A stretch of 54,639 nt of DNA. Origin: Heterotrichella gracilis. Taxonomy: Eukaryota > Sar > Xanthophyceae > Tribonematales > Xanthonemataceae. The translations under genes and the position numbers were made by a program. Under the pieces are notes generated by a model, which saw only the letters and a program-made list of their open reading frames with translations, was not told where the DNA came from and did no database searches. Positions 286 to 54,227 of the stretch are shown here, piece by piece (within the stretch, counting starts at the first letter, position 1; every line of letters starts with the position of its first letter). The stretch lies in the NCBI GenBank assembly GCA_032358255.1, contig JAULBX010025897.1, forward strand, positions 1-54,639, written 5' to 3'.

Positions 286-2345
286 TCACACATCTTCCCA
301 CCTGTTGCTTGCGTAGCTGGTCATGAGCATCCCGCCCAGCAGCAGCACCGTGGCCTGCATCGCCAGCTTGGGCCAGTTGGCGCGGCGCATGGCGCAGCGC
401 AGCCGGCGCAGGTTGTCGCGGCAGGCGGGCGGCAGGCGCGCCTCCAGGCTGCGCAGGAGCTCCTGGATCACCTCCAGCACGTTGGCCACGGCCCTCTGCG
501 GGGGTTGGAAAGAGGGTTTAGGGTTTGCAGAGAGGGTTTAAGATATATAATATAGGGTTTGCAGCAGCTCCTGGACCACCTGAAGCACGTTGGCCACCAC
601 CCTCTGCAGGACTTTTCAGGGAAGAAAGCTGCCGCTGTTACTGTGCGGTACACCAAAGCAGAAACAGCCACACAAGGTAAGGTGGGCGTATAGGGGTGGA
701 GCGAAGGTGTAGCGTTGTTGTGTGTGTTGTGCCTGGCTGTTTCCTGTGGGCGTTTCGTTTCTTTCTTTCTTTCTGTAGCAACCGACCACGGTAAGGTCTG
801 GGTATGCATGGCATGGGCAGCAGCAGCACAGGAGGCAGGCACTGGTTCACTGGTTCACAGGCCAGGGTGCCCCAGATGCGTAGCGAACGGGACTTGGCCA
901 CAGCGCCAGGCTAAAGCATGCCACCCGGCTGTTCTGCGTGCCCCACCTGTGGGTAGATGCTTGCCACTGTGCCTGTGAAGGTGTCCAGCACGCTCTGCAT
1001 GGCGCTGAAGCAGGCGTGGGCCTCCTCATCCTCAACACCCTTGGACCCGCCCTCCCCAGAAACAACCTCTGACGAGCCCTTAGAGGAGCCCTTGGTTGAG
1101 CAGGAGTCGGTGCCAGAGGGCGCAGATACCTCCACCTCCAGCTCAACACCAGAGGAGGCCATGTGGAGCAGCTCGGCTGCAGCCATGAGGGCATTTTCGC
1201 CTGTCAGGTCCTCCACAACCAACTCCTCCTCCTCCTCGACCTGATCACCCTCATCCTCTTCCTCACCTTGCTGGGTGGTTGCTTCCAGGACCACCTCGTT
1301 GACGGTGTCTTGGTGGTCGCCCTCGTCCACCAGGGAGGCCTGGCGGGAGGTTTGGTGGGAGGAAGGGTTGTTGACCAGGCTGAACGAATCAGAGGACTCT
1401 GAGCGGGAAGGGGTGGGGGACAGGGCTGCTGCTGGGTCCTCTGGAGCTGCCTCTTCTGGATGTGGCCCTTCCTCCTCTTCTGGGTGGTCCTGGGTTGGGT
1501 TGGGTGCTTCCTCAACGATGGGTTCCTCCAGCTTGGCTGCTTGCTGAGCAACATTGATGGCATTGGATGCCACCTCCTCCTCACTAACAAGGTCACCGGG
1601 AAGCGTTTCTGAGCCCTTTGGGTCCATCTCCTCGGTCTGAGCTCTTTCCGGTGCTAGTTGCAAGACGGGCTGGGTGACGCTCGCTGGCGGTGGTTGATCG
1701 CTGCAGCCCAGCGTGGTTTCTGTGGGTTGCGGAGTGAGGGGTGGGGGCAGTGGTAGTGCCTCTCGAGGCAGGAACTGGCCCTCAAAGGAAGGCTGAGGCT
1801 GACTCACAACCTCCTGTGACTCTAGGTAGTCGTACGGCGTGAGGGACCTGCACGAGACGAGCCACGGAAGTGGTCATGGCATGTGATCAGGCATGAGGGG
1901 CACTTTTCACTCGTTTTGCCAATACGCCACAAGAACCGACACTTGGCCCCACTTAACATACGACACCAGCAAATAGGAACAAAAGGGTTGTTCTCAGGCC
2001 AATGCGACGTACTCTTCGCTGATTGCGGAAGAGGACCTGCTCGAGTGGTCCACCAATTCCCAGTCAGCATCGCACTTGCTGGCCATGGGTGGAGCAGCTT
2101 GCGCGAGCTGTTCTTCTGGGCCAGGCTCCCAGTCGTTCACGGTGCCAATGACGGCAATATCCTGTGTTTCCTGCAAAGCGACAAGCAATTGAGAACCCTG
2201 CCCACTTGCCACGCACTCCGTAAGCAAAAGTTCCTGTACTGGAAGCGAACCTGGCAAGTAGCCAAACCTCCCTGCCTGGCGCAAGCTTACGACACCTGCC
2301 TAGCACACCCATGCGCAAAGTTACACGCACCTGAATGGAGCTCAT
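286..2345 (-). CDS. Acidic tail-anchored membrane protein, candidate ATG8-interacting (ATI-like) protein
   Basis: Proposed exons (minus strand): 2345-2331, 2170-2013, 1847-947, 495-286. They join in phase to give about 427 residues. The short first exon (MSSIQ, followed by a GTGCGT donor) is the least certain; the other junctions are clean. Near the N-terminus is DADWELVDH (W42-V45), which fits the W-x-x-L/I/V motif by which autophagy cargo receptors bind ATG8. It is followed by a long Asp/Glu/Ser-rich, low-complexity, probably disordered stretch. A single hydrophobic segment near residues 402-420 (LAMQATVLLLGGMLM) is followed by only a few residues and ends RWEDV, which is tail-anchor topology. 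Plant ATG8-interacting proteins combine an early ATG8-binding motif, disorder and a membrane span, so that is the best analogy. It rests on architecture, not confident homology. Another tail-anchored ER or plastid protein is possible. Confidence 0.55.
561..609 (-). repeat. Decayed copy of the start of the ATI-like gene's last exon, with acceptor
   Basis: About 41 of 48 bases match the true acceptor and exon start at 453-500. The copy lies in the preceding intron, and the two are separated by telomere-like motifs (AGGGTTTAGGGTTT on the plus strand). Read in the gene's sense it has a usable AG acceptor, so it could act as a decoy splice site. Confidence 0.75.
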
Positions 2346-3222
2346 TGAGTGGGTCAAGGTTGCACCCAACTGTCCGAAAATGATCGATTCCTGGACCTAC
2401 TCGTAAGGCCCAGTTTTTTCACAGCCAAGAAAGCAGCAAGGCAGGTTGCGACACCTGTAGACCGCGACCACGCAGCAACCAGCGCTCAGCACGGCCGAAA
2501 CGGTCGACAGGGGTTGTGCACGCAGGTATGGGGCGCTCGTGCGCAAGGCTTGTTGCTCGACAGCGCTTCCACCGCAAGAAAAGTTTGAACGCACGCCCTC
2601 GAGGCTTACCCAACCAGGGGGGGCATTATATTCAACTTGCAGGGGAGGCCTAGGCTGCATGCATTTTGCAGGACATGGTGTTTTCCAAATTCAGAAATCC
2701 ACATTATCAGCTTCAGAGTCTCGATTGGCATCTGCCAGTTCGAAGCATGTGTCTCGGATCACTGGGTTGCTTGAAACAGCGTCAAAACAGAACTATGGTT
2801 GGCACCGCGTCACCGCGCTGCTGCATCAAAATTGCCATCTGGCGCTGCTTGCCGTTACCGTATGTGCTTGCCATGCATTGCACCAACTGGGGCAGAAATT
2901 AATTTGATCACCTTCCCAGGGGAGGAGTTGCTTGCCGAGCTCATGCGCGCCAATTTGTTACCCAATGGGCAGCGCGTTGCCAAACCACCGCTGAGGATAG
3001 GGGTTGCACGTTGCACGGGTCTAAAAGGGAGTCAGCCAGCACAAGCACTATGGGGATAGAAAATAGAAGATGGAACAATATTCCTAACCCTAAAAAATCG
3101 TTCTCAGCAGTAAACCCCAATCAAGGATACTTCCAGGCTTTGGGAAATGTCACCATCCACCCCAGGCACAAGAACCACCACCACCACCTGCTGCGCCACC
3201 ACCACCAACTGTTGCCTGCCCC
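2346..3222. other. Spacer between the ATI-like gene and PRMT5
   Basis: This holds the 3' end of PRMT5 and the 5' region of the next minus-strand gene. Short open frames exist on both strands, but none shows recognisable protein features or consistent splice sites. Confidence 0.5.
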
Positions 3223-6200
3223 TCACAGCCCCACGTGGTAGGACCGCCCATTCACGTTGTGGATGTTGGTGGGCACTGGCTTGGTCAACGCCCACTCGTA
3301 CCACACCTGCAGAGGAGGGTGGGGCACAAATTGGGGTCAGCAGATGCAGCCACATTCACGCACACATTTGCCAGGGTCTGGTCCCCACTGCTCGCTACTG
3401 CTTCTCCATGTGCTGGCTGTCCACACCCCCTATATTTTAGACACATCTTAGGGCTCAGGGTTTGGGGTTGAAGGTGGTCATGGTTGGGCCCATCCTAGTG
3501 CACCATTCACAAGGCGCGTAAAGAAACCCTAGCCCACACCTAAAGCCCCACCGCACGGCACCACAGGTGCACCATTACATGACCCAAACCCTAGGCAGCC
3601 CTTGCGAAGGACCTTCCCCTCATGTCAAATGTGACGCATGGGTCATGCGCAAGCCCACATGGCCCTACACCCGCACGCCCTTCCACCTTGTGAGTTTCAG
3701 CACATTGTGCATCGCCACACGTGCATGCCCACCTCACCCCAAACCATTAACCCTTGAAACCCTAAACCCTAGGCACGTACCTTGTGCGTTGCCGCGAACC
3801 GCCACATGTGCACCCCCACCTTGCCCCCCGCGGGCATGTACATGGGGCGATGCAGCGGGAAGTATATTGGGAACCAGCTGAACATATTGTGGGTGTGGGT
3901 GTGTGGGTGGATGCTGAGGGTGACGTCCTTGTACAGCTTGGTGTCAAAGTAGCCTGGGGGCAAGGGGAGAAGGCACATATTGGAAACATATTCAGAGAGG
4001 CCATAGTAAGAGCGCTTGCAAAATGGCAAGAAAAGCAAGCATACCTCGTACGTTTCCCCAATTACCAATGCCTAAAGTTGCTATCACAACTCTGAATGTA
4101 CATCAGCACAAGATAACTCCTTATACTAATCGCTTCATTTCACACAGACCCTAAACGCAAACCAGGCATATGCATTTCATAACTATCCTAAATTAAGTAA
4201 ACCAGGCATATGCATCCAATTCCCTTGCCCACACCACCCACCTTGAGATTTTAAAGAAAACCAACAGATCTATGAAACTAATATCCCTTGCACCACCCAC
4301 CTGCAAAGCCGTGGCAAAGCGCCGCCAGCTCTGGGTGCAGCTTGAAGGTCAGTGCTGCGTCCCGCCTGTTGTCGATGGGGGTGTTGCGATTGGGGTGCAT
4401 GAATGTGAACACAGGCTGGGGGGCGGCCAGGGGGGTGAAATTGTACAGCTTGACCACGTAGGGGGTCTCAAAGTGCTCCAGGTCGTCGTACGCCTGTGCC
4501 AGCGGGGAGAGCAGGGAATTATACACCAGTGTGTGTGGGGAGGGAGATTATGGCCTGGTGGTAAACGTGTCACATGCTGCATGCAAGGTGATGGTAGTGG
4601 TGGCAACCATTCAAAATGCACTGTCCCCAAGTAACAAGCTCTAGATTTAAAACTCCCATCTATTCCTCGTGTGACAGTTCGGTCTTGACGCACTCCCTGT
4701 GCACTCTCTTCGCCGTGGTGAGGCAAACAAAATGACATCCCCACACACACATGCACACCCCACCCACCTTAACCGAGTTCCATAGCTTGGCTGCTGTGAT
4801 TGGCTGCAGGTAGGAGGTGTAGGACTCGGGGATGCTGATACCCTCCGGCTTCAAAAACCGCTGGGCCCCATCCAAGCACTCTGGGGACAGCTCGTTGTCC
4901 CCAAAGGATCCCAGCAGCTCGCTGACCAGGATGTCGGCTTGCTCAGGCGCCTCCCAGTGGCGCATGTCTGCACCCACCAGGGTCACCTGCTCCGTCCACC
5001 TGTAGGAGAGGGGGATATCTAGTGCTTATCCAAGGACAGCAAAATCACCCATATATTGGGGAGGCATCAACATGGGAGTGGGGGAGATGAGTGGCCAATG
5101 ATCGGCGTATCAACCATGCATGGAGGGCGAGGTCAGCATGGGAAACACCTTCCATACAATGCCACACGTATGGGTAAACTTGAGACCAGGCTACAGGATC
5201 GTGGTATACTGCTGCGTCATGAAGAGCGTAGTACTTGGGCGGAAACGCCGAACCATACATCTGATACAGGACTACATGTTGTTTCAGCAGCGACGCACCC
5301 TTCGCTCCATATGAGGTGCTGCAGCGTGACCAGCGCGTTAGGGTTCTTCTCCACGGCGTAAACCCTAATCGCCCGCCCCGCGCGCCGCCCGGCGTTCAGC
5401 GAAGCGCGCACCAGCGGCCCCCGCCCCGCACCCACCACGATCACCACCCCCACCACCCCCGGCGCGCCCCCACCACCCCCCTCCGGTGCAGGTATCCGGT
5501 CCAACAGGGCCTGATAGACAGCTTCCTCGTATGTGGTGTACTTCATGGTGTCCTTCTCGAAGGTTTCGTATGTGGCTGACTCCAGGTTGTCTTGCAGGGG
5601 CTGCAGGGGGGCCTGCGATGGGTGTTCAGGAGGGTAATGGTTTGGTTAGGGTTTGGCTAGGGTCTGTGGGGGTCTGGGGGGCAGTGCGAGCAGGTAATCA
5701 TAGGGTTTCACTCATTCACAGGGTTTCCCTGTAGGCAGTCACGTGCACTTCCCGCTCCCCACCTCCACCACTTAGGGCTTTGAGTCAGGGTCCTGGTCAG
5801 GGTTTGTAGGGTTTGTAGAGTCCCCACCCACCCACCTGCAGGTAGTCCCTGTATGCAGTCTCCTGCACCTCCTGCTCGCTGACTGGGTCGATCTTCCGGA
5901 ACAGGTAGCTCAAGTACTCCCAGTACACCCGCAAGGGGTGCGATTCACCGGGCACGTGTAGGGAGTCATCAGGGGTTGCACCCCCCTGGGATTGTGTGGG
6001 GGGTGGTGGGGCGGTGTGGTGTGCGGCGCCGCTGAGGACCACCTGTGGGGTGGGTGGGTGGGTGGGTGGAGTGGGGCGGACCATGCCACTATGGATGTTT
6101 TGCAACTACATATTCCATGGGTGGGGATATGCGGCGCTGCTCAGGACCATCTGAAGGGGTGGGCGGAAGATGGGGTGGATCAAAATTATCGTTTGTGTAT

Positions 6201-8902
6201 TTGGTGGGACACTACCATATTTTGATTCCCGGCTTTCGTTTGTTGCATTACGTGTGACTGCACCTACATGTGGTGTGGGTCTCGTATGTATGCCTGTCAG
6301 CATGGGCACGTCTCAGCACATGAATGTGACTATGGGCATTTGGCGCCCACCTCCACCCATGCCCCCCACCCACATGTCCACCCGCCAGCACGTCCTGGTG
6401 CCTTACAAACCCACTGAAAACCCTAAACCCTAAAACCCCTAACCCCAACCCCGCTCACCTGCACGCCCCGCACCAGGAACCCCGCCAGCACGTCCTGGTG
6501 CCGCTCAGGTCACCATCCAAGACCCTAAACCCTAAACCTTAAACCCCCACCCACCTGCACGCCCCGCACCAGGAACCTCGCCAGCACGACATGATGTTGT
6601 CTAGGTCACCATCGAAAACCCTAAACCCTAAATCCCCACCCACCTGCACGCCCCGCACCAGGAACCCCGCCAGCACGTCCTGGTGCCGCTTGGTGAGCGT
6701 GGGGAACCCCCGCTTGTTGGTGACAAAGATGCTGGTGGGCACCACCACCGCTTTCACAGGCTCGCCCCGCCACCGGGCCACCGCCTCGGGTGGCGGCAGG
6801 CTGGCGGGCAGCTCCAGTATCAACCCTAGGCGGGGTGTGTGCTCGCACAGCACCCGCACCTGGTTCCACCACTCCCAGGGGTCGGACAGGGGCAGGCCTG
6901 CGCGGCGGGTGGTGGGGTTGGGGTGGGTGGGTGAGTGGGTGGATGTGGCAGTGGTTGTGGGGATGTGGCAGTGGTTGTGGTTATGGGGGTGAGTGGTGGG
7001 GGTGGCAGTGGTTGTGCGGATGGGGTGGGTGATGGTGGTGGTAAGTGGTTGTATTGAAGGGGTGGGATATGGCCGGCAATGATGGTGTGTCGGGGATTTC
7101 AATGTGAGGGCAGGGTAATGTCAGGCCCACAACAGGTGCAAAGATGAAGCAGCGCTCACCTGCCGCCTGATGTGCGTCCCCAGGCTCCTGGGAGTCCCCA
7201 GTGGTGCTGGTGGGTGATGGCGGGGATGTGATTGGCACGCGCAGCCATAGGGCCATGCTCCCCAGGCGGCCGAAGAACTGCAAGGGGGGGTGTATGGTTT
7301 AGGTTAGGGTTTGGGAGACACGGTTTGAGCGGCATGCCCAGCCACGGCGCCATGCTGCCCCCTCGTCCAGAGAAGCAGGATGAGCTAGGGCGGTGCATTT
7401 GGGCAGTGAAGGTCAGGCTGGGCAAGCACCACTGAAATGTGATGATCATGGATCAGAGCAACCCGCGGTTACCCGCCCATTACCACCACCACCACCGAAA
7501 ACCGCTGCCGCATGGGTGTGGGCGGGATGCATGCCTGCTGCATCAAGTAAACCCCCCCGTCCCCACCCACACCCACACACCACCGCACCCACACCCACAC
7601 ATGGGTGTGGGCGGGATGCATGCCTGCTGTATCACGTTACCCCCACCCCCCACCCACATCCACAGACACCACCACACCCACACACACCTGGTTCAGCACC
7701 GCCGCATAGTTGGCTGCGTCCAGCGGCCGCGGGGGTGTGGGCAGGATGCACGCCTGTAGGGACAGGTGCGAAGCCCAGTCCAGTTCCTGGCGCAGGGCGG
7801 CCGCCGAGGCGGAGCGCAGTGGGGGGTGTGGGGAGTCGGGGTCGATCCACTCGCTCACCCGACCAACCACCTGGGAAATAAGAATGGTGAGTGGATTGTG
7901 GGGGCGCGGGGGCGACCCCTGGTGTGAGGTGGCTGTGGTGGAGGAGGGGCAGGGGCTGGGATGCCCAGTCCAGGCATGGTGCAGTGCGGCTGAGGAAGCA
8001 GACCGCAAGGGGGGTTGAGGAATAGGGTATAGGGTTGCTGTTGGTCCACTTGCCCACCCACCCGGGTGGGAGGTGATTGGTGGTTTCAGGGGGTTGGGGG
8101 ACTGATGCACTGGGCCACGAGATCGCACACCTAGCTGCATGGTGGGGTGGGGGAATGTGCATAGACACACGCTGTAAGCACTGGCAGACCCCAAAGTGCA
8201 GGTGACGTGGTGGGGACAGTTGGGTGTAGGGTTTAAGGGTAGGGTTTAGTAGGGTGTAGAGTAAGGTTTGCTCGCACCTGGCCAGACCACTGCGTGGAGT
8301 TGAGCAGGTAGTCCGATCGGGTGAAGGGGGGCGGGATCAGGCCCGACGGGCCCGGGGGGGAGGGGGCTGGGCGCTGGTTGCGGGGGTGGGCCAATGGGGC
8401 GACAATGAAGTCGAAACCGCACAGGAGGGAGCTCTGTGGGGGAGGCGGGAACAGGTGACAAATAACACAATGTTGCAACCGCTATGGGATCGAAGGTACT
8501 CGACATTCGTAGCTCACTGACGGTCAAGTTGGCTATGTGCGTGCAAGATGTGCAAGCTGGCGGGGGGTGGCATGCCTGCATATTCCTGTTCTTATCAACC
8601 CCTGCACAGGAGCGCGGAGTGCTTTGCATGCCTCGCAGATACCTGAGCGTATCCTTCTCATTCTTGGCCCATGTGGTGTGTATGGCGCTGCCCCTTGCAC
8701 TAGTATATTATATGCATGCATGGAGGGTTAGTGGCATGCATGCATATTGCCCAGCACCTCACCGGTTGCCCGCTGCGTTGTCCGAACAGTATCCAATTCA
8801 AATGTCACCTACCGCTAGGGTTTGGACTATGTCACTGGCGAACGACAGCTCCAGCCCGGCATACTTGGCGTCGCCGCAGTCGGTCCGCTTGCCCAGAGGC
8901 AT
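3223..8902 (-). CDS. PRMT5: Protein arginine N-methyltransferase 5 (PRMT5)
   Basis: Type II methyltransferase that makes symmetric dimethylarginine on histones and Sm-type splicing proteins, in nucleus and cytoplasm. Exons (minus): 8902-8813, 8433-8278, 7870-7688, 7277-7160, 6897-6644, 6042-5836, 5612-5299, 4999-4768, 4493-4301, 3953-3781, 3306-3223. All phases agree, giving 667 residues, close to the family's roughly 640. An N-terminal TIM-barrel-like region (to about residue 290) precedes the Rossmann methyltransferase and beta-barrel. Visible landmarks are [14 protein letters not shown] with F354, the position that favours symmetric dimethylation; the SAM loop [10 protein letters not shown] (about 395-404); VEKN with the ribose-binding Glu (E424); and [15 protein letters not shown] with the catalytic glutamates E468 and E477. 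It ends NGRSYHVGL as PRMT5 proteins do. The start [10 protein letters not shown] fits the family N-terminus. An insert rich in Gly (EGGGGGAPG) precedes the SAM strand. It is divergently arranged with MON2. Confidence 0.95.
6121..6165 (-). repeat. Degenerate copy of PRMT5 exon 6 acceptor and start
   Basis: The sequence GCGGCGCTGCTCAGGACCAT mirrors the true exon start at about 6017-6056, and the polypyrimidine-side sequence is partly kept. It lies immediately upstream of the real exon in gene sense. Confidence 0.65.
6376..6640 (-). repeat. Three partial copies of the end of PRMT5 exon 5 with its donor site
   Basis: The true exon end and donor start at 6641 on the plus-strand view. Copies lie at 6552-6600, 6456-6506 and, shorter, 6382-6402. 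The two longer ones keep the donor-adjacent sequence and most of the 48-base exon end. Each copy is followed by a closely similar tail (AGGTCACCATC then A-rich sequence and CCCTAAACCCTAAA), so exon end, donor and telomere-like motif appear to have been duplicated together. Confidence 0.85.
7324..7385 (-). repeat. Degenerate copy of PRMT5 exon 4 start
   Basis: This resembles 7229-7284 (exon 4 start and acceptor), including the block GCCATGCT between similar flanks. A TTAGGGTTTGGG stretch separates copy and exon. Confidence 0.55.
7513..8072 (-). repeat. Copies of PRMT5 exon 3 on both sides of the exon
   Basis: Downstream in gene sense, 7513-7546 and 7601-7636 share a GGTGTGGGCGGGATGCATGCC block that matches exon 3 near 7728-7768. 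Upstream, 7950-8013 and 8041-8072 together resemble the first part of exon 3 (GCCCAGTCCAG block, then the sequence around the acceptor). The true exon is 7688-7870, inside this span. Confidence 0.55.
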
Positions 8903-9776
8903 GGCGGCAACCGCCGCTGCTGTGCTTCTTTACACTGAGGTGACCGCAGAGGAATTATGAGTTAAAAAACGTGTTTATCGTTCCTGGACAAGGCGAGTGT
9001 CTGTTTGCTGGTGGTTGCCTCATGGGCAGTGTCTGTGTTTGGACTGATTAATTGCAATGGCAACACGGGAGAGGGCTGTCAGATCTTAGGCAAAATGGCC
9101 TTTTTGCAACAGTGTTGGGGGGGAATTCGTTGAGCTGGCACTGGTGAGGTGTTGAGGCAGCTGCTCGCCTTTCTATTGCTTCAGACATCTGCGTGAGTGA
9201 CTGATGCATGCATGCCCTTCTCTCCCCGCAGGGTCAAGCCCTGCTTTTCAACCCTGGGTAAAACCTTTTGGGCATGGTCATCCCCAAAACGCAGAGAGCA
9301 GGGCCTGAGCTACAGACTGCAAAGTGGATAATTCCCTTCAGGGTCAGGAATGAGCGCTGCTGGCTATACAACAGTGGTGTTACCCAACGTTGTCCCATCG
9401 TTCACTGTTATGCATTGTATGTGATAGCTGTGAATATCTGGGCTGCAACCTCTGCTCCACGTTTTTGTCGAGGACGCCTTTGTCTAGTTGTTTACGTCAC
9501 ATCTGCTTGGCAACGCGGTGGTGTAGGATGGAGTGGGGTAACATCTGACATGCCTGGGGCCATGGGGTAATGGATGTGCCCACTGCCCACGGGTCGCTGC
9601 CAACGGGCAGAGGTGGAGCCAAACAGCTGGTTGAAACACATGGGCACGTATGAATAGAGGAGCATCAGCTGCAGCAGAGGCGACCTGAAATAGTTATGAT
9701 TTGGCTCTCCTAGATCCACGGCATCTGCGACTTGGTTATTCTGACGGATGCCAGTGCACCACCGCGGGGCAACACG
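8903..9776. promoter_or_regulatory. Divergent spacer between PRMT5 and MON2
   Basis: This must hold the promoters and 5' UTRs of both genes. I see no convincing TATA element and no further gene. A TGCATGCATGC palindrome occurs near 9204-9214, but the same motif recurs at many unrelated places in the window. Confidence 0.5.
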
Positions 9777-12700
9777 ATGCAGCTGGGTCAAGGCAACCTC
9801 ATATCGACCCTTGAGACGGACTTAAAACAGCTGGTTACAGAGGCCAGGAAGTCGGATGGCATCACTGGCTGGCTTTCAGGCAGCGAACACCCCAAGATCC
9901 GAGATGCCGCAGAGAAAGCGCTCAAGTCGCTGGAAAGCCTATCCGACAAGCCTGACGGCCTGGAAACTGTTCGGACGTCAAAGGTAATTTCCACGGGTTC
10001 TCTGGTGTGACTCCAGCCTAAACAGCATGTGCATGCATATACGAAAGACCAGCATGAAAACCCGCTTCCAGATGTGACGAAAGCATTGCCAGGGCAAAGT
10101 TAACTGGCGTTAAATGGTGCACAGCTGATTGCAAACTGGCTGCATTGCCAGGGTACATGTAACTCGCTACCCAACACTGCATTTTCCCATGCTTGACCGC
10201 CATCTGGGTTGCCATGGCAGGAGTTCATCAAGCCCTTCGTGCTGGCAGCGGAGTCCAAGACCCCCAGGCTGGTCAGCGCGGCGCTTGTGAGCATGCAGAA
10301 GCTGTTTGACAACCGGCTGATACCGGATGAGGGCATGGACGGGGCGGTCTTGGCACTGGAACAGGTATGGTTACCCTTGCCCTCCAAAAGCCCTAAACCC
10401 TAAACCTCAAACCTGGCACTGGGGAAGCTACCTGCACCCACCATGTACAACTGTTTCACTGGTTCATTGGTGCAACCTGGTCAAAACCACGCCGTCCGTC
10501 TGGCAGACATGTGCCGGCAGTCGGGGTTTCTTTTACCACACCTGTTTGCAAAGCCGTTCAAATGGTGTGCATTGGGACAGCTGTGCATGCGCACCCCCCT
10601 CCTCCTGGTGATGGCACATGGTGTAACGGTTGGAGTTGTGGAACAGGTTGAGAAGATGACTGACGAGGGCGTGCAGCTCAAGCTGCTGCAGACCATCCTC
10701 ATACTGCTCCAATCCAACATGGTGTCAAAGAGCCAGGTAGGGTATTTGGAGGGTAACCACTGCATTACAGGATTAGGGCATTTGCAGGATAATCTTAGAC
10801 TGGGTCCTTTTCAATGTATAGGTCATTATGAGAAAGAAACACATCTACACCACCACCAGCGGCCTCATTGGAAACCCGTTGGCAATTTTTTGTGGAAGCC
10901 ATCCATGACTCCTGTGAATTTTAGTTGCATGAATTGTCGTGCAAGGCTGAATTCTGCCTGGCCTGACACCTGGCTTGCTGCGCAGTGGCGTGTGGAGCGC
11001 GTGCTGAGCATCTGCTTCAGGATGCTGGCGAGCACGCGCAACACAGACAGCGTATCAAACACAGCCGCGGCCACCGTGAGACAGGTGGGGGGGGGGAGGG
11101 TGTGGTCGAGGAAAGGAGGGGGGAGGGGGGGAGGAGGGGGCAACATCTCCAATGCATGATCATGGCCCATTGCATGGATGCTCACATGCATGCACCTGTC
11201 TCATGGGCCATGATTGCATGCTCACAGGCACCGCCATGCAAGCACTGTTGATCGGTGCAACCAGCCTGCGGGACTCGCATTTCGTGGTTATGACAGCGTA
11301 TGAATTTCTACAAGAGTCAAATACACTGCATGGCGCATGCCCTTGCATGTTGCATGCAGACGTTGCACAGGCCACCCCATACGTTGCACACGCACATGCA
11401 TGCATGCTACCTTGCATGGCACGCATATATATACTTATAGCCAGCTTGCCTTGGTCTTCTGATCATAATGCACATCTCCTTCCCCTGCAGGCGGTGGTGA
11501 TAGTGTACGAGCATGTGCTCACCAGCACTGGGGCCGCCAAGGCGCACAGCCCCAAGCACGCACGCGAGGAGATTGTATATGCCGCACTCAACATACTGGA
11601 CGACCTGTGCCTGCTGGCCAACGGTGGGTGGGTGTGGTGGCGGTGGTGGTGGCGGTGGTAATGGTGGTGGGTGGTGGGTGGGAGGGGGGCATATTCTGCG
11701 TGGGGCATGGGATGCATGGGGTCAACCCATAATGCACATCGCATGCGTGCCAAAATATGCGCAAAACACATGAATCGCTGCCCTTGCTACCCACCTCCAA
11801 CTTCCTAAGCCTTGTGACGCGCACCTCATGTGCTCTTCCCGCCTCCCACGAATGACTCCTCCACACCCACCACTGCAGGCGCCTCTGCCAAGTGGCTCAA
11901 GATCCCGCAGTTCCACAAGGCGTTCGTCCTGGACCTTCTAGGGTTTGTGCTGTCAAACTACGCCGAGGTTTTCCGACACCTGCCAGAGTTTGAACACGCC
12001 CTCCTGGTGCGTGTGCTAGCTAGTTAGTCCAATTGGTTCAGGGTTCAGTGAATTATTACTGTTAGTGATGCTGCATGCGTTCCAGCAATGCAGCCAAGTT
12101 ACACAGCCGGGCTTGTCCCTATGCGGCACCAAGCGGTCCTTTCCTGGCACTGGTTGTTCCGCTTTTTTTTCCCTGCATGAATTTTACCTTAAATGGCCCT
12201 GGATTTACTCCGCAAATGGGCCCATTTGCAGGTGCGGGTGTGCCCCCTCACAATGGCGAATCTGGAGGCGGTTTTGGACCCCGAGGCCGATACCGGGTCG
12301 GGGTTTGCCGAGCTGCGCATCGTGCTGCGCAACGTGTCCACCGTCATTAAGCTGTACTACCGCCAGCTTAAGGCCAAGTGCGGGGCGTTCATAGAGACCA
12401 TGCTGCAAGGTGGGGAGCCAGGGTGGGGGTGGTTGCGGTGACATTGGTGGTGGAGAGGAAGGGGGGGAACGGGATGCTGGGGTGCGGGTTCCTGTTGTCC
12501 TAGCATGGCTCAGCACCACCAATACAGCGCATGAACGCACTACATCCCTGCCGGCCCTGGCCCTCTTTAGCACATCAGTATGCTTCTCGGCCCCTCCCCT
12601 CCCTCCCCACCCACCTCACACCCCCACACCCCACCCATACAGGCACCGACGCCGGGCGCGGCGTGTGGCAGCGCATCAGCGTACTCCAGGTGCTGCGCCA

Positions 12701-44191: not shown

Positions 44192-45236
44192 ACAGTAACG
44201 TCTGCCCATTGCTCGCCAACTTATGGGCGACGCGCTTAGGTTTTATTTTCAGCGCGTGGGTACCCCCCACCGGTGCAGTAAAGTCTGCCCATTGCTCGCC
44301 AACTCATGGGCGACGCGCTGAGGTATCATTGTTAGCGCGTGGGTGTAGTAAAGTCTGCCCATTGCTCGTTAATATACGAGCGACGCGCTTAGGTTTTGTT
44401 TCTAGCGCGTGGGTGCAGTAAAGTCTGTCCATTGCTCGTTAACTTATAGGCGACGCGCTTAGGTTTTATTTTTAACGCGTGGGTGCAGTAAAGTCAGCCC
44501 ACTGCTCGTTAATCTACGGGCAACGCGCTTTGGTTGTTTTTTTAGCGCGTGGTTGTTTCTTTAGCGCGTTTACAAAGTCTGCCCATTGCTCGCCACGCGC
44601 TGAGGTTTTATTTTAACGCGTGGGTGCAGTAAAGTCTGCCCATTGCTCGCCCAACTTATGGGCGACGCGCTTTGGTTGTTTTTTTAGCGCGTGGGTACAG
44701 TAAAGTCTGCCCATTGCTCGCCAACTTATGGGCGACGCTCTGAGGTATTATTGTTCGCGCGTGGGTGCAGTAAAGTCTGCCCAGTGCTCGTTAATCTACG
44801 GGCAACGCGCTGAGGTATTATTGTTACCGCGTGGGTGCAGTAAAGTCTGCCCATTGCTCGCCAACTTATGGGCGACGCGCTGGGTATTATTGTTAGCGCG
44901 TGGGTGCAGTAAAGTCTGCCCATTGTTCGTTAACTTACGGGCGACGCGCTGAGGTAGTATTGTTAACGCGTGGGTGCAGTAAAGTCTGCCCTATGCTCGC
45001 CAACTTGCGGGCCACGCGCTTAGGTTGTATTTTTAACGCGTGGGTGCAATAAATTCCGTCCATTGCTCGCCAACTTGCGGGCCACGCGCTGAGGTTTTAA
45101 TTTTAACGTGTGGGTGCAGTAAAGTCTGCCCATTGCTGGCCAACTTGCGGGCGACGCGGCGCGCCTAGTAGATTTTATTCTTAGCGCGTGGGTGCAGTAA
45201 AGTCTGCTCATTGCTCGCCAACTTGCGCGTCATGCT
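44192..45236. repeat. Tandem satellite, about 15 units of roughly 70 bp
   Basis: Each unit runs TAAAGTCTGCCCATTGCTCG, then a short stem (TCGCC, about 8 bases, GGCGA), then ACGCGCT, an AT-rich 13-14-base loop, AGCGCGT, and GGGTGCAG. Thus every unit holds two inverted repeats. Units are 68-72 bp except a shortened one near 44573 and longer ones near 44192, 44488 and 45117. Some units swap the first stem to CGTTAA...TACG, with both arms changed. It sits between two genes and does not resemble either. Confidence 0.95.
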
Positions 45237-46046: not shown

Positions 46047-49000
46047 TCAGGCAGAGCCCAGTGCTGCCACGATGCTGTCGGTGTCTGCCACCCACCCCAC
46101 GATGCCGCCCTGTACATGCGGGAAGTGCTTGAGAGCCATGGATGCTAGACAATTTGGACAGGATTGGTTTTGCTTTGTCTGCGCCTGGCACCCAAACATG
46201 CTGCACTGCCCACAGGGAGCTGAACGGATTAGATTAGATTAGATTAGATTAGATCAGATTATATTATATTGGATTAGGTTAGATACATGCTGCCCACAGG
46301 GAGCTGAACGGATTAGATTAGATAAGATTAGATTAGATCAGATACATGCTGCCCAAGTATAGGACTGGGAAAGAAATGGATGAGCATTCGGTACAAATGG
46401 AAGAATGGATGGTCATCTGTCTTCAGTGTTCATTTTGGGCCAGGGCTCCCTCGCGGCCCAGGCGCCACAGCCAGGATACATCATATGTGGAAAAGAACAA
46501 TTCAATGATAACCACATCAATGCATACAATAGGGTGGCACCACACAGCACAGCACACCACACCACACCCACACGCCACAAAGCCGCACCCCTGTGCTTAC
46601 ACCCCCCCACCCCCCTCGCACAACAGGCCCCCCGCTCCCCCCCTTACACACCTGCGCCAGTATCATGTTGATCGCCTGCGCCTTGAACTCCGGGAAGTAG
46701 CTCTCGGTTGCGTCCTCCACCAGCACGCACTCGTAGCCGCGGTCATTGGCCTCGCGCATGGTGGTCTGGACGCAAACCTGGAGGGGAGGGGACCAGGGTT
46801 TTACAGTAGGGTTTAAAGGGTTTGTGTGGCACACTGGGCGGTGGCCTTGCGCATGGCGGGTTGCAGACATGGTATGCCTGAGGATTTGCACATCCTTTAC
46901 CCTAAAACTTGCCCTAAATTGTGGGCTCACCTCTGTGGTCACCCCCGTGATGATGAGGTGTGTGATGCCCCTCTTCTTCAGCTCCTCCTGCAGGTCAGTG
47001 GCCCAGAAGGCGCCCTTGCCGGGCTTGAACAGAAGCTTCTCACCCTACGCAAGGGTTTTGGGGGGAGGAGTTAGGGCGAGTGCACATGGGTGTTAGTGTT
47101 GATGGGCTTATCCAACCAAGAGCCAGCAGTGTCGTTTGGGTTTAGGTTACGTTGAACGGTCTAGGGTTCATCCAACCCAGGAGCCAGCAGTAAAATACAC
47201 TGTTGGCACTCAATTGATTGAGGTAGGTATCTCAACTCACCAGCCCCATCACTACCATATGGGGTTTTGTTCCGGCGCCAGGGTAATGTTCCTCCATGCG
47301 ATGGCATGGAGTTTATGCAATCCCCAAGATGTGATAGAAAGATGCTGTGCTTTATACATCAGCCACCACTTATAGCCAACTCATGACATGCACACAGTCC
47401 TCTTGTCTACCCCCTTACACCACCATCTACCTCCACACCACCCCCACCAGCATCCACCCCGCGCACTTCCACCGGCGCCAGCTCATCGATGATTGCTGAA
47501 GAGCCAACCCTAAACCCTAAACCCCAAACCCTACACCCTAAACGCACCTCCACGGGCGCCAGCTCATCGATGATGCCATTGCCAGGCTCGTTCCGCACCA
47601 GGATCCTGCCCATGTCCCCGTCTGCCACGTCACCAATGCGCATACCCTCGGGAGGGTTTCCACGGACCAGCTTGGAGTGGGGCAGGTCAGAGAGGTCTGG
47701 CAGGTGCGCTTCCATGGTGTGCACCACGTAGATGCCCTGGGCGCGGCAGGCGTCCATGAGCTTGGCAGCGGCAGGGACGCAGGCCTGCGGAATGGGGAGA
47801 GTAAAGGGGGTTGACTTGATGTAAAATGGGTCCTCGATGCATGGTGGCCCACAACCTGGGTATAAAGTGAGGGTGCAGATAGGGTTTTGGCGAGGGGTTT
47901 GGGTTCCACAGGTAGGGTTTTCCAAGTTGGGCAAGTGCACCGATATGGAAATTTAATGGAAATTAAATGTATCAAAATGTGTCTAAAATGTAATTTGTTT
48001 TATTTTAAACAAAAGTAACGACTAAGATTAGGGTTTTGCAGGGAAGTTTCTGGCAGGGTTTTGGTGGGACCTCCACACAGGTGCAGATTTGTGTTTTCCA
48101 ATGGAACCACATTCCACAACCTCCACCCACCAGCAGCAGCTCGATGTTGTTGCCCAGCGCCGCCCCAAACCCTCCGGGGTACATGAAATCCCGCTGGAAG
48201 TCGATGTTGATGAGCGCAGTCTTCTCAATGGGTAGGGTGTAGTCGTAGGGCTTTGCGGATACTGTCACGGTGCGCACCGGGGGTGGGGGTGGCACCTCCG
48301 AGGGGGCGATGGCAGCGATGAGCGCTGGGGAAGTCGCCACTGATCCAAACACCCCACCTGGTGCGGGGTGGGGGAGGGGGCAGGGGGGGTTGGTGGGGAA
48401 GAGGGGGCCAATGGGGGTGGGGAGCCTGGAGATCTACCCCACTTTCCCATCTTTCATTCTGAGCAACCCCAGATGATTGCCAAAGTCTGCCGGGAGCAGC
48501 AGCCACTCATAGCCCAAACACTAAACCCCTTCCACCTTGACATCGCAAGTGCAGCCAGGCATGTAGGCACACCAAACCTACGAGTTCCACTCACAAACCC
48601 ACGCACCCTGCAGCTTGACCATCCTTTTGGCTGCGACATTCCTCATAAACCCTAATTCCTAATGCCTTTAACCCCTGCACGCACCCTGCATCTTGACCAT
48701 GTTGAGCGCCGCCAGGTGGTTGCCAATGTCAGTGGCTGCAGTACAATCCGACAGCAGCAGGCACTCGTAGCCCAAACCCCGCACACCCTGCACCTAAACC
48801 CTAAAGCCCCAAATAAAACACCCTACCCATCCTTTAACACCCCACCCAAACACAGCCTGCACCAAAACCCTCCACGCACCCTGCATCTTGACCATTTTGA
48901 GCGCCGCCAGGTGGTTGCCGAAGTCGGTGGCTGCGGTACAATCCGACAGCAGCAGGCACTCGTAGCCGCGGTCATTTGCATCGCGCATGGTGGTATGCAC

Positions 49001-50832
49001 ACACACGTCGGTGGTGATGCCGGCCAGGATGAGGTTGCGGATGCCCTTGTTGTGCAGGATGAGGTCGAGGTCTGTGAGAGGTGGGAGAGGTGGGGGGTGT
49101 GGGGTGGGAGGTGAGGAATTGAGGGAGGGGTTGAAGGGTGGGAGGAGCGACCTTTGCCAGGTCAAACCCCAAACCCTAAACCCTAGAAATGATGATCTCT
49201 ACCCAGGCTCACGCACACCACCACAACAACAACAACAACCGCTGCACCACCACCATCATCATTATCACCACACAACCAACACCACCTCCGCCACCACACA
49301 ACCAACACCACCACCCACCTGTCGCGTAGAAGGACCCCTTCCCTGGCTTGTCTATGATTGGCTCCCCCTCCAGTGGTGCCAGGTCAGGGATGATCTCCCA
49401 GCCAGGCTCACCGCGCACAAGGATCCTGCCGCAGGGGCCGGAGCTGCCGATCTCAGCACCTGAAGAGGGGTGGAGATGGGTTGAGAGGGTGTGGGTGAGG
49501 TACTGGAGGGGTCAACGTACGTGGGTGGCTTGCACGCATGTGTGGCACGATGCAAGGGCAGTGCCAGCAACTGCAAAAAAACGGCGCATTTTTTTGGGAG
49601 ACATGCCAGTTAGGCTACTTAAAGGCGTCAAGGTGGACCCTCCACAGGAATACCACCCTGGGACATAAGCATAGGCCGCCTCCAATGCGCCAGTGCTATA
49701 CCTATGGGCTCAATCCCCCTTGAAATTTAAGGGGAAAAAACCTGGCCCAGTGCACCTACCTATCTTTGCGCTCCTCCACTTCTTGTTGTCCGGCAGGTCG
49801 CTGAGGTCTGGCTTGTGGCCCTCGCGCGTGTGGATGACGGTGTAGCCGCCGCCGCGCATCACGCTCAGGAGCTTCCTGTGGCGGGTGGTGGGGTGGGTGT
49901 TGGGGAGGGTGGTGGGGAGGGTGGGGTGGCAGGACGGGCATGGTGGCGAGGAGTGGGGGTAATGGGACGTGTGCATGGTGCATGGCGCTCCACAGTGTGG
50001 AGGGTGGTGTGGGGTGGTGGCAGCACAAGTGATAGGCAGCAAGGGCCTTGTTGGAAGGGGCGTGCTACCCTACACCTTACACTCTAAACCCTACGACAGT
50101 GAGTGTTGGGGAAGAGAAATAGTGTAGGGGGATGGACAGTGGCGGGACGGGCAGGGAGGGTTGTAGACCCTGACTCAAGGTGTCCAAACCCTAACGGTGT
50201 GAAACCCTAACTAGTGTGCTTAAACCCTAAGTTAGGGTTTGGGGACGAAGGGGGGTTGTGCGTACTTGAGCGGCTCGATGGGCGCCTGTGTGAGTGTGAT
50301 GTCGTAGCCCATGCTGTCGACATAACCCCCCTTGCCGCAGAAATCAACCTGGGGAGGGGGAAATAGGGGGGAGCGTTATGAAGCTGGAAGGGGGCATACA
50401 GGACCATGGTGCACCAGAGTGGGTTTAGGGCGCAGGGGGGAGGAGGGTGCAGGGTATGACTGCTAGTGTGCGGCATGACGTGGTGTGAAGGTTGGACTGC
50501 CTTCAGTTGAGAGGCGTGGCCTGTTGCAGCAACACTACAGCAAGTGGGATCTACAGTGGACTCACGGCATGCGGTTGGCGATGGGGCAACTAGGGGCAGT
50601 GGCCTTGGATGGCAGCAAGGGGAGGTGGCAGGCTGGGCTTAACAAGGCTGTTCTAGACCACATTCGAGGAGGTTGGCGAGCAAAACGTACTCACGTGCGG
50701 CACCCTCGTGGCAACACACGTGCTTACCTGCATGTCGATGATTATCAGCGCGGTGTTATCGGGCGCGAGCTTGCCATCGTAGGGCCAGTCATACGGCTCG
50801 CCCTTGACGAACGCCATGGTGGGTGGCCGGTC
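46047..50832 (-). CDS. Fused double-domain isochorismatase-family amidohydrolase (biuret-hydrolase-like)
   Basis: Two complete cysteine-hydrolase domains in one chain. Exons (minus): 50832-50728 (ATG at 50817), 50348-50266, 49875-49760, 49459-49319, 49071-48880, 48357-48131, 47784-47548, 47044-46931, 46777-46652, 46109-46047. All phases agree; 462 aa from that ATG. Domain 1 (about 1-225) closely follows bacterial biuret hydrolase: [66 protein letters not shown]. Its Asp-Lys-Cys triad is D28, K134, C167. Domain 2 (about 245-462) has D260 (INIDFQRDF), K369 ([10 protein letters not shown]) and C402 ([16 protein letters not shown]), so both active sites look intact. A Pro-rich linker joins them. 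The family cleaves C-N bonds in biuret, ureidoacrylate, nicotinamide or carbamoylsarcosine; the exact substrate is inferred only for domain 1. A further in-phase 5' exon ending near 51574 probably exists. Confidence 0.92.
46199..46353 (-). repeat. (GATTA)n tract with duplicated flank in the last hydrolase intron
   Basis: Two blocks of ATTAG pentamers (about 46227-46285 and 46309-46345) are each preceded by the same GCCCACAGGGAGCTGAACGG unit, and each is followed by CATGCTGCCCA. Flank and microsatellite were therefore duplicated together. Confidence 0.9.
46831..46865 (-). repeat. Degenerate copy of hydrolase exon 10 start
   Basis: GCCTTGCGCATGGCGGGTTG resembles the true exon start at about 46748-46780. 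A TAGGGTTTAAAGGG stretch lies between them. Confidence 0.6.
47463..47495 (-). repeat. Copy of hydrolase exon 8 end
   Basis: GGCGCCAGCTCATCGATGAT is exact relative to the true exon end (47555-47574). CCCTAAACCCTAAACCCC fills the gap between copy and exon. Confidence 0.88.
48470..48774 (-). repeat. Three copies of hydrolase exon 6 end
   Basis: 48678-48774 is nearly identical to 48874-48971 (GCGCCGCCAGGTGGTTGCC exact). 48600-48640 keeps only the donor-side block GCACCCTGCA then diverges. 48470-48519 is an internal fragment (GAGCAGCAGCCACTCATAGCC-like). CCCTAA motifs separate them. The source exon encodes part of the domain 1 active site. Confidence 0.9.
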
Positions 50833-51573
50833 CTGAAGAGGGAACAGAAGGGGTTGGGTGGGTGGGGTTGCATCCGACAAGGGTTTCACGGGGATACATG
50901 GCACCACGCCCACCACGTGAGACACGCCCCGATCATAACCTAGCCACAGCGAAGGTTTTCAGGAGAGGTGTTGGTGGTTGAAGGGCAAAGACTGGCTCCT
51001 GCTTGGTTAAAGAACCAACCTCTAAACGTGCCTTCTGGCCTAACCTCCAGGGGAGTGCCTGTCCAGTGGGCGAGGCAGTACACCATTAGGCACCACACAC
51101 CAACCAAACTTGGGGGATAAGCGTGGGGATGGCACAGCACTGCGATGAAACAGTGAGGCATACGGTTCAGTGCCCTCAAGCGGGACGTGTGGTGGGGGAG
51201 ATCAAGGTAAGGCGGATCAAAGGAATGCACACCAGGGTGTGGATGGCTTGGGAATGCACAAAACCAGGTGTTCCAAAGCTACCGCCCCAGTCAGGTGCTG
51301 CTCAGAAAGAAAGCCTTGCCATGGTACGGCTTGTATAGTGGTTCTTATGACGGGCACCCAGTTTCCAGAAGCAGAGATGAGTAGGTGTATGAAACCCCAG
51401 TCCTAAAGGCAGGACAGGAGCCATGTGGGGTAGAAACCCAACAGGATCCCCGCTCGGTATTCCCACAAACACACCCCAGCCCTAGACTAAAGGGCCACCA
51501 CTCTGTCCCAGCAAAGGCTTGCGCATGGGTGCCCATCTAAAGCGCCCAGCCAGCAAACCCAGCAACTAACCTT

Positions 51574-51781
51574 GTTGCCGGTGGGAAGCTTCAAAGATGG
51601 GGGCGTCCTAGCGCGGCGGTCCGCTGAAGTGACGGCTTTGGCTCGATGCAGGCTCAGGATCGAAGCGCCAACCTCCCAAAAAACGACGAGCACAACTCAG
51701 GACGCGGTGTGGCAGAAGCATTGAGCAAGGCACCAGGCGATCCTAAGTACCGTTCCGGCTAGGCCCAGTACTACACCGTTC
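51574..51781 (-). other. Probable 5' exon(s) of the fused hydrolase
   Basis: In gene sense an open frame ends at AACAAG followed by a GTTAGT donor (51574/51573), which joins in phase to the GACCGG start at 50832. That frame (ending SLKLPTGNK) has no ATG. A nearby frame starts MLLPHRVLSCARRFLGGWRF, a mitochondrial-presequence-like peptide, but stops before the donor. A spliced or corrected leader is possible. Confidence 0.4.
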
Positions 51782-52791
51782 GCTCCTCGCCTGAGGTACT
51801 CTTATTACTCCACCCACAGACCAAGATCTGTTTTATCAAGGCAGCGGGTTTCACCACCAGCACTGAAGCTTACCCACTCCTGCTGCTGGTTGTGCATGAC
51901 AACACCTGTACTGTGGTTCGAAGCGCAGCTAACATCGCCCCCTCTGTTCAAGTCGAACAACCACCGGTGCAGTGCGCCCCGTTGCCCAAACTGCACCCCT
52001 TGCCAGACTACTCAAATACCCTGTCACACCACGCGTCGTGTATCAACATCGTACCCGCATACAGCCGTTAACAGCCGCATCGTATATGCATGCACTGCAG
52101 CCTCTGCTGCTTGCTTTGATGGGCACTCGTTTTTCCTCGTAGTGGTCCCTCCACAGGTGTATCGTGAGGAGAACAGCTGGATGAATAAGCCTGCGCGGAC
52201 TTGATCTGGGTGGCCGCACCAGGAGACGGGCGGTGATGGACTCTCGGGTAGGGCTTATGTAAACACTGTTTTATATGCATGCATTGCAGAGCCATGAATA
52301 AAATTACTACTGTGAATACACGGAGGGTGATTACACGTAATCAGGATACATAAAATAAAGAAATCACTTTCTTTGTATGTTGCAAAGCTGGTTCACCTGG
52401 CCCAGATCCTGCCCATGCATGCCCCGAAGGTACAGCCACCAGCTGCAGCACCCTAAACCCTAAACCCTAATATGTTCCACCAGCTGCAGCACCCTAAACC
52501 CGAATATGTTCCACCAGCTGGTACCATGGGACTGTGCTCGACCTTTGCCCTACACCCTGAACTCCATATCCCTTGTGCGATTCCTGAACCCCAAACCCTT
52601 ACCGTCAACCCCGAGAAAACCTGACTGATGCCTGCTGCAATTCCCCCTGTTGTTCTCGACACCTCAGGCACCGCCGCTGTGCCACTTACTTTCAAGTCCT
52701 TCATCTCCAAACCCTAATACCTGACCCCTGACGTTTCAGCAACTCCTGAAGGCAGTGCCTAATTCCACTTTCCTTTCCAAATTCCCCCCAG
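51782..52791. other. Spacer and unresolved 5' part of the AP2 gene
   Basis: Earlier exons of the AP2-domain gene may lie here, for instance near 52158-52205, but I cannot join any in phase. Holds two and a half copies of a CCACCAGCTGCAGCACCCTA unit with CCCTAAACCC (52436-52525). Confidence 0.45.
52655..52690 (+). repeat. Copy of the first recognised AP2-gene exon start
   Basis: GACACCTCAGGCA then a closely similar GC-rich run matches 52792-52825. The acceptor is partly changed. It lies about 130 bases upstream of the true exon. Confidence 0.75.
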
Positions 52792-54227
52792 GACACCTCA
52801 GGCAGCGCCACCGTTGCCTCCATCGTGCACCGTCTCGCGCAGGTGGCTGCCACCTACCAGGATGTGCCCTCCATATACAAGCGCAGGAAACCTAACGACC
52901 CGGACATAACACAGGTGGGGGACGAGACACACGCACCAAACCCTGGCACCAAACCCCAGTGCCAAGCCCCGGCGACCCAGAAGTACTCAGTGGTGCACGG
53001 GGCCGATTAGAGCCCATGCACAAAACCCCTAGCTATAAATCCCGAATAGGCGCACGCACGCACCCCAGGGGCAAACCTAAGGAAGGGCACGGCAGTGCAA
53101 TCAACCATATGCACGGGCCATGTTGTACGCTGGGTGGCGATGCAGGACCATGGCGCAGTGCATGTCATACGACAGATATATATATATGTATGAACATATG
53201 TGAATCTGTTATTTGGCGCAGTGCATGTCATGGCATTGGCCATACTGGGGTGAGGCATACCCAGACATGCTAACCTGGCTTCAAAGCTGGAAAGCAAATA
53301 CCTACTTACTTATGTCATGGCATTGGCCATACTTACTTACATTTGCTCCAGCATAGAGCCAGATGAGCAATGGCCGCAACAAGGGGTGGTGTGTCACGCA
53401 GAAAATATATGTATTATTTTCCGCAGTGCATATCCATGGCCTGACTTACATGCGCTCCAGCAATACAGCCACAAGATCAGCAGTGGCCACAATGGAAGGG
53501 TGATGGAGACAACAAGGGGTGGTGTGTCACGCAGGAACTGGGGGTGCGGATCCTGGAGTGGGCCCAGGTGGCCAGGAAGGGGCGGGGGGAGGTGGCGCGC
53601 ATGGTGCCGGGGCTGGGGTTCAGACCGGCAGGCACTGTGGAACAGGTGCGCGTGGCAGGCATCGCACGCCCTTGCAAGGGTTTTCCTGTGCATTGAAAAT
53701 ACCCTCAACCCTCGCCCTCACCGCCCCAGAAGCTCCCAGGGATTTGCGCTGGTACAGCAAACAAGCCTGAATTCTCTCGTGCGCAGCCGCCCTCGCCAGC
53801 TCCCTTGATGGGGCAATGGTTTCCCCCTAGTATCAAAATCCCCAACACTGAATAGTCCCATCGTCAAAAATCCTCACGCTGAAACCCTTACACTGAAAAC
53901 CCTACCACCAAAACCCGCACGCTGAAATTCCGCACACCAGAAAACCCACACCAAAGACCCTCATACCAAAACCCCTGACATTAAAACAACCGACACCCCA
54001 CAGGTCAAGCCCTCGTTAGGCAGCGGAGCCCCCCGCGCATCCCTGGGCACCCCCACACCCACACCCACTCTCACTGCTCGTGGCTCCGCCCCCCCCACCT
54101 CCCGCCCCTCTGTGCAATCCACCAAGGGGGGTAAGCCCAAGCACACCAGCTCGGGGCGCACCTACACTTCCAAGTACCGGGGGGTGCACCAGACATTCCC
54201 CACGCGGCGCTGGGAGGCGCAGTTCAG
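52792..54227 (+). CDS. AP2-domain protein, partial (continues past the window)
   Basis: Likely nuclear DNA-binding regulator. Exons seen: 52792-52914, 53535-53645, 54004-54227, joined in phases 0, 0 and ending in phase 2. Both ends are missing: no start is identified, and the last exon ends at an AG/GTAGGG donor with no further exon in the window. The first exon encodes SGSATVASIVHRLAQVAATY and KRRKPNDPDITQ; the second ELGVRILEWAQVARKGRG. The third is Ser/Thr/Pro-rich, then SGRTYTSKYRGVHQTFPTRR and WEAQFR, which matches the start of an AP2 domain (YRGV, then W and a basic strand). Which AP2 subgroup cannot be told from the half-domain. The earlier segments are not a family I recognise. Confidence 0.72.

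Follow-up and report, generated by a model that had tools for sequence, protein, structure and literature searches.

Telomere-like sequence and local direct duplication at splice junctions in a trebouxiophyte-like green alga

Introduction

Why should the introns of an alga carry pieces of the exons beside them? The question is posed by contig C339 (1–54639; hereafter 'the window', 54,639 nucleotides in all) of a 68.5-Mb genome in 903 contigs, for which a preliminary description had reported partial copies of exon ends inside the adjacent introns, commonly next to TTTAGGG or CCCTAAA motifs. One way to understand these copies is as the scars of breakage: introns would grow by recurrent break and repair focused on splice junctions, with sequence duplicated locally and in direct orientation, often around a telomere-like filler. 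We give this reading a probability of about 0.6. Its observed basis is local direct duplication, the focus on splice junctions, the enrichment of telomere-like sequence between copies and the joint ageing of the two.

The sample consists of the window and twelve stretches of 20 kb each, taken at fixed positions (294,639 bases in total). Genes were modelled in it by a small hidden Markov gene finder, self-trained on the same bases, which converged on the donor CAG/GTGNGT, the acceptor YGCAG and 390 introns. The exons of the TOC75 model closely match protein homology (for example, exon 29823–30077 against a match at 29821–30078), and those of the MON2 model agree with it broadly (model exon 14684–15086, homology ending at 15083). 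Four other window models carry Pfam domains (PRMT5, SNF2, helicase-C and isochorismatase); a Pfam search of two short window models returned no domain. The closest named relatives of TOC75 are in Myrmecia bisecta (63%) and Coccomyxa (62%), and that of MON2 is in Myrmecia (40%). Both genera belong to the trebouxiophyte green algae, and from these two proteins the genome is read as that of a trebouxiophyte-like green alga.

Direct and local copies

Compared with itself (blastn, at least 30 bits, copies no more than 1,000 bp apart), the window gave 76 direct matches and 1 inverted before complexity filtering; within 1,500 bp there were 79 direct and 4 inverted, all 4 of the latter being telomere-like sequence. 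The first complexity filter lost long copies, and another was used in its place; it left 52 direct pairs, including those of a 70-bp array at 44.2–45.2 kb, with no inverted pair and none in three shuffles. Without the array, the window holds 37 junctions between adjacent copies. All twelve of the clear cases in the preliminary description overlap a complexity-filtered direct match, and the exon-edge copies are real. Its weak cases did less well: 7 of 16 were recovered, and those at 6121, 7324, 30926, 31588, 37083, 38613, 39570, 46831 and 52655 were missed, two of them having a match that begins 28 and 47 nt off (30954, 37130). The claim that every recognised gene is affected holds for 7 of the 8 intron-bearing window models and fails for the short model at 50232–51086.

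In the sample as a whole, each stretch was again compared with itself. There are 196 direct pairs within 700 bp and 2 inverted ones (the 70-bp array, at 44.15–45.26 kb, was removed from the direct list and kept in the inverted list), against 1 direct pair in five dinucleotide-shuffled copies of the sample. Intron growth by local direct duplication of exon/intron junctions, as the preliminary description proposed, is supported by counts far in excess of those in shuffled sequence. When introns were searched against the 434 sample exons (40 bits or more; exons shorter than 30 nt excluded), 74 matches were in sense to the adjacent exon and 7 in sense to the near neighbourhood; there was no antisense match and none to another stretch. 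An 8-mer test tells of the same locality: sharing with own exons occurs in 63 cases upstream and 44 downstream of 384, compared with 8.9 and 11.1 for other exons. Sharing with own antisense sequence stands at 7 and 17, so the test carries simple-repeat noise. The 60 nt nearest to the splice junction have a copy at 60 of 396 junctions, and the 60 nt beyond them at 24.

Reduction to neighbouring copies leaves 129 junctions: 47 donor-side, 29 acceptor-side, 30 exon-exon (the gene finder labels some intron copies as exons, and such pairs are counted in this class), 13 intron-internal, 5 intergenic and 5 exon-intergenic. Duplication overlaps 108 of the 377 introns of 60 nt or more, and a junction is found in 40 of the 64 gene models with introns. 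The twelve further stretches hold 0 to 17 junctions each, next to the 37 of the window. Copy identities span 66 to 100%, and the copies are thus of many ages.

Faulty assembly could make such copies, and in one case may have done so: at 4476–5091 of L023, copies of 98–99% identity flank a run of N. As a general explanation it is hardly credible, since most copies differ by several to 34%, with unique sequence between them, and junctions occur in 11 of the 12 further stretches.

Orientation bears on the choice among repair routes. End joining by polymerase theta, with templated insertion, yields copies of the flanks in both orientations; that mixture was not seen, with 2 inverted against 196 direct pairs and no antisense match from intron to exon.

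A different perspective would make these duplications the origin of introns rather than additions to them. New introns might arise by tandem duplication of an exon piece bearing AGGT, or by the spread of introner transposons; a potato gene is described as having acquired an intron by duplication across an intron-exon border (PMC4974935). Duplication of this kind predicts that the copies align donor to acceptor. At 50% identity a slight excess is found (5 and 7 introns in the two tests, with 2.6 and 2.2 in controls), but none of 366 introns reaches 66% on either test, and at that level the candidate is negative. Introners fare no better: with telomere-like sequence masked, only three weak cross-locus matches of 24–32 nt, in sense, were found among 384 introns. 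Between loci, introns thus have hardly any sense-strand sequence in common; no introner family is apparent in the sample, and that candidate was rejected. We regard intron gain as very improbable here.

Two further places may be mentioned. Unlike the other stretches, L029 (positions 1–20000 of the joined stretch L029+L030; G000:C24:100001-120000) has no junction and few telomere motifs, despite seven predicted gene models. At G000:C76:114112-114805, in a pattern listing, several matches start with CAGGTGGGT, followed by TTTAGGG-like sequence and a recurring GTGCCACCATCAAGCTGGT-like stretch; they are spaced mostly ~90 to 100 nt apart, as if an exon end had been copied repeatedly to form an array.

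Focus on splice junctions

The exon part of the copies is 16 to 113 nt long. In 44 of the 76 donor- or acceptor-side cases (donor 32 of 47, acceptor 12 of 29), the copied piece ends, on its splice-proximal side, no more than 16 nt from the splice site; junctions therefore look targeted, not merely tolerated. Among pairs of 87% identity or more the figure is 23 of 33 (donor 18 of 24, acceptor 5 of 9), and for these pairs decay cannot account for the proximity. Inspection by eye of 41 pairs that are at least 85% identical showed no evident base preference at the exon-side breakpoint.

It might be supposed that ordinary tandem duplication goes on everywhere, and that the bias towards junctions arises afterwards, exon-only duplications being purged and intron-only pairs decaying twice as fast. 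Both effects are expected in principle. Their size was estimated by a simulation of 1,800 events in which breaks were spread evenly along introns, lengths were those observed and divergence was even up to 30%; exonic sequence decayed on one side and intronic sequence on both, and the filters were those applied to the observed data. The simulation, which assumes equal lifetimes, that even divergence and the self-made gene models, detects 251 exon-including and 754 intron-only events. Purging and decay would thus leave about three intron-only pairs for each exon-including one; the sample has 13 intron-only against 106 exon-including (odds ratio 24.5), the intergenic and exon-intergenic classes (10 junctions) being left aside. 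Without the 30 exon-exon cases the counts are 76 and 13, and the odds ratio 17.6. Simulated breaks fall within 15 nt of a splice site in 68 of 251 cases, compared with the 44 of 76 observed within 16 nt. As this explanation also leaves the telomere-like spacer unaccounted for, we consider it improbable.

Telomere-like sequence between copies

TTTAGGG is the telomere unit of this genome. Perfect eight-unit runs were located on 11 contigs: in 6 they read CCCTAAA and lie no more than 200 nt from the contig start, and in the other 5 they are on the reverse strand; contig C626 encodes a telomerase RNA-binding domain. Exact TTTAGGG/CCCTAAA has a density of 1.35 per kb in introns, 0.38 in intergenic sequence and 0.02 in exons, and 19 of 384 introns contain two perfect units in tandem, whereas no shuffled intron does. 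A loose test (a 9-mer with at most 1 mismatch) has a high background, 196 of 384 introns being positive against 103 after shuffling; weight is therefore put on paired flanks and exact runs. By the loose test, 20 of the 37 window junctions have a telomere-like 9-mer between the copies: the motif is common there, as had been said, although 'always' would be wrong.

In the paired contrast, the spacer between two copies is compared with the outer flank of the same pair; pairs were left out if the spacer was shorter than 15 nt or the outer flank exonic, which kept 68 of 76. Among the 59 donor- and acceptor-side pairs whose outer flank is clean, 21 have telomere-like sequence at the junction alone, 5 at the outer flank alone, 15 at both and 18 at neither (p=0.0025); the motif is thus commoner at the seam than outside it. 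The 26 young pairs among those with clean flanks divide into 10, 1, 7 and 8 in the same order (p=0.012). Age tests used the 85 spacers of 8 to 130 nt. Of these, 22% contain an exact telomere run of at least 10 nt, compared with 5% of random intron windows; the longest run shrinks with divergence of the copies (rho 0.37, p=0.0006), and the telomere-like fraction falls as well (rho 0.26, p=0.015). Longer runs accompany more similar copies, and tract and copy thus seem to age together.

Genome-wide counts were made around CAGGTGNG, a donor-like motif that is not always a donor; nested matches were counted alike in all six pattern counts. TTTAGGG occurs 1,298 times at 5–34 nt behind it, 378 times at 200–229 nt and 351 times at 5–34 nt in front; for CCCTAAA the counts are 906, 463 and 353, and for reversed-pattern controls 13 to 24. 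Near acceptors (0–30 nt upstream, in the sample) C-rich telomere-like motifs are present and G-rich ones nearly absent, perhaps because TTTAG/GG resembles a 3' splice site; this suggests selection against decoy acceptors.

Do the tracts come first? They may have been present beside splice sites beforehand, perhaps as signals in splicing, and acted as fragile sites whose breakage duplicates the adjoining exon edge. The tracts do reach a maximum at 15 to 50 nt from donors and acceptors alike, even in the 269 introns without detected duplication; those near acceptors are almost all of the C-rich strand; and a telomeric tract placed in an intron is described as causing rearrangements (PMC6410037). 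Yet a pre-existing tract should follow both copies, and junction-only pairs outnumber outer-only ones in the paired contrast (21 and 5, with 15 both and 18 neither); moreover, tract purity drops with copy age, as expected from a joint origin of tract and copy. On balance we think pre-existing tracts unlikely. The preliminary description had left the motif's role between homology and filler. Filler fits better and homology less well, because the motif is commoner between copies than at the outer intron edge, and only 2 of 72 outer exon edges have any.

Evidence against, and the source of the filler

Break and repair at splice junctions must be weighed against several observations that tell the other way. 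The gene models are self-made, and the homology check covers TOC75 and MON2. Density is uneven, with one of the twelve stretches lacking a junction and one having a single junction. No telomere-like 9-mer is present in 58 of the 129 spacers (by polarity, the rest are 37 G, 29 C and 5 both). Nine pairs have an outer flank that comes from another junction; they divide into 2, 1, 3 and 3, a contrast of only 2 to 1. On the acceptor side the outer copies are also preceded by telomere-like sequence (density 0.116 outer, 0.20–0.21 inner), and filler is harder to separate from unit there. The tract directly abuts only 13 inner edges, too few to read its register. Finally, the inner edges show no strand preference: out of 248 (spacers shorter than 8 nt excluded), 53 are G-outward only, 45 C-outward only and 3 both (p=0.48).

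The last two points concern telomerase. The TOC75 array looks as if telomerase had capped each copy at both ends; capping of broken ends predicts that the G-rich strand faces outward at the inner edges. The pattern fails over the 248 edges, and capping of both ends was rejected on the near equality of the two orientations. The further suggestion that the filler is telomerase-added is accordingly not demonstrated. At abutting edges, at least 1 nt is in register in 5 of 7 G-outward cases (p=0.013) and 3 of 6 C-outward ones (p=0.17), where 25% is expected; these edges are few and selected.

Copies in the individual genes of the window

TOC75, on the minus strand, offers the closest view. At 28533–28974 an exon end is followed by three intron copies in units of ~117 nt, and the plus-strand sequence at the first two junctions is TTTAGGG..CCTAAACCC. 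Exon 28894–29100 matches residues 433–501 of Myrmecia TOC75; the intron copies at 28522–28626 and 28639–28743 match residues 475–509 and 475–512 with lower scores. For two of the three copies, homology thus confirms the relation of exon and copy in this gene. A second TOC75 site, 31858–32125, has an exon-start copy at 32063–32125 (97%) and a spacer without a telomere-like 9-mer; the gene model makes both copies exons, and homology puts the exon at 31677–31922.

MON2, on the plus strand, has seven sites. The exon end within 14998–15394 has three partial intron copies (15132–15197, 15236–15290 and 15334–15394), with G-rich telomere-like sequence ahead of each. An exon-end copy at 12804–12846 (site 12711–12846; 91%) has a TTTAGGG-type spacer, and a junction copy at 14115–14144 (site 14031–14144; 16 nt of exon and 14 nt of intron; 93%) has a spacer with TTTAGGG. 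Spacers without a telomere-like 9-mer are found with the donor-side copy of 13145–13264 (90%) and with the copy at 19369–19425 (site 19263–19425; 86%). Upstream of an acceptor, 18974–19205 contains exon-start copies of up to 97% with CCCTAAA-type sequence between them, and at 21486–21705 an acceptor-side copy (81%) has a CCCTAA-like tract inside the unit. A tRNA-Leu (TAA) gene lies within the MON2 model at 20639–20720, between exons 20116–20207 and 21664–21940.

In the PRMT5-gene model (minus strand), the copies 453–502 and 561–610 (site 453–610) are 86% identical, 37 of the 58 spacer nt being telomere-like; the donor-side copy of 5726–5877 (84%) has 28 of 88. An exon-end array at 6381–6690 has a TRF period of 89 and CCCTAAA tracts within its unit. 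Donor-side copies at 7504–7756 (7511–7598/7600–7687 and 7603–7626/7733–7756) have no telomere-like 9-mer between them. The isochorismatase-domain gene (minus strand) has an exon-end copy at 47462–47574 (94%), with a CCCTAAA tract in 38 of 49 spacer nt, and at 48600–48967 two pairs, 48600–48622/48678–48700 (96%) and 48670–48772/48865–48967 (93%).

On the plus strand, the SNF2 gene has a donor-side copy at 38991–39179 (83%; CCCTAAA in the spacer), and the SNF2 region has copies 40940–40982 and 41118–41160 (site 40940–41160; 77%) with CCCTAAA tracts between. In the helicase-C model (plus strand) an exon end at 41224–41486 is copied twice (41344–41433 and 41448–41486), and 41743–42052 holds an exon-end copy at 41954–42052 (88%) with no telomere-like 9-mer between.

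Other repeats lie outside these sites. The intergenic array at 44190–45235 has ~13.5 copies of its 70-bp unit; three units compared with their own genome found one other place among the matches listed, 64 nt on C190. GATTA pentamers repeat at 46206–46343, in two blocks 98% alike, and positions 1–58, at the contig start, are a run of 58 C, perhaps an artefact of sequencing or assembly.

A possible mechanism

As we infer it, the sequence of events starts with a break, passes through repair and may draw its filler from telomerase. A break would form in or close to a splice site, typically no more than about 15 nt away. One of its sides would then be copied again, if the staggered ends of the cut are filled in or if synthesis runs past the break on the sister and end-joining follows; both fit the observed pattern, and the two are indistinguishable here. 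In this way 16 to 113 nt of the neighbouring exon, usually with a few intron bases, would be repeated in direct orientation, and a spacer, often telomere-like (TTTAGGG or CCCTAAA) and probably made or supplied by the telomere machinery, would join the copies. In the outer copy, reading frame and splice site would be preserved; spacer and inner copy alike would turn intronic and decay about neutrally, and renewed hits would build arrays. The preference for splice sites might come from nicking at the ends of exonic R-loops, or from breaks in the nucleosome linkers at exon edges.

Putative decoy splice sites are indeed left behind, as the preliminary description held: GT is retained in 26 of 29 donor copies (22.6 expected) and AG in 15 of 19 acceptor copies (14.6 expected). 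These putative decoys persist at about the neutral rate. A stronger proposal, which we advance tentatively, links the mutations to splicing or transcription: DNA would be cut at splice junctions, the exonic side duplicated and the gap closed by repeats that telomerase makes. Such a process would be the chief driver of intron growth in the lineage and would supply decoy sites at a steady rate.

Comparison with known systems, and implications

In plants, the stretch between staggered paired nicks is reportedly duplicated in direct orientation, after which the ends are joined; such duplications share the direct orientation and are not known to have telomeric filler or a focus on splice sites.

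Mammals provide the nearest likeness to the spacer. Short interstitial telomeric tracts are inserted there at double-strand breaks, and the flanks are directly duplicated at a minority of loci (rodents 6 of 130, primates 4 of 25, horse 3 of 66); two further horse loci combine deletion, addition and duplication, and the horse duplications are ascribed to staggered breaks (PMC2246262, PMC7215372). The event type is therefore known, with own-type telomere repeats at the junction and direct flank duplication (here 196 direct against 2 inverted). In those mammalian reports, however, deletion is the commonest change and inversions occur at some horse loci, and the human insertions include none in exons and 31% in introns, which is called compatible with random insertion (PMC2246262, PMC7215372). 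In the present sample direct duplication prevails, it touches 108 of 377 introns and its positions concentrate on splice sites. The potato RdRp intron shares duplication across an intron-exon border with reuse of splice signals (PMC4974935); it differs in that existing introns lengthen here and the donor-acceptor alignment is negative. Introners share large-scale intron change across a genome (PMC9860276), whereas the sample has no dispersed family and each copy comes from its own neighbourhood. No description of this scale and splice-site focus was found in the literature searched, which lacks most subscription journals.

If a mutational hotspot at splice junctions holds with transcript-based annotation, it would tie genome instability to splicing or to the chromatin of exon edges, and would place telomere-like repair DNA within ordinary genes on a scale not met in that literature. 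Intron lengthening without transposons is hard to observe. In this genome each event bears its own date, in the identity of its copies, and its own breakpoint; with 108 of 377 introns affected, the position of the break, the source of the filler and the splicing of decoys become measurable.

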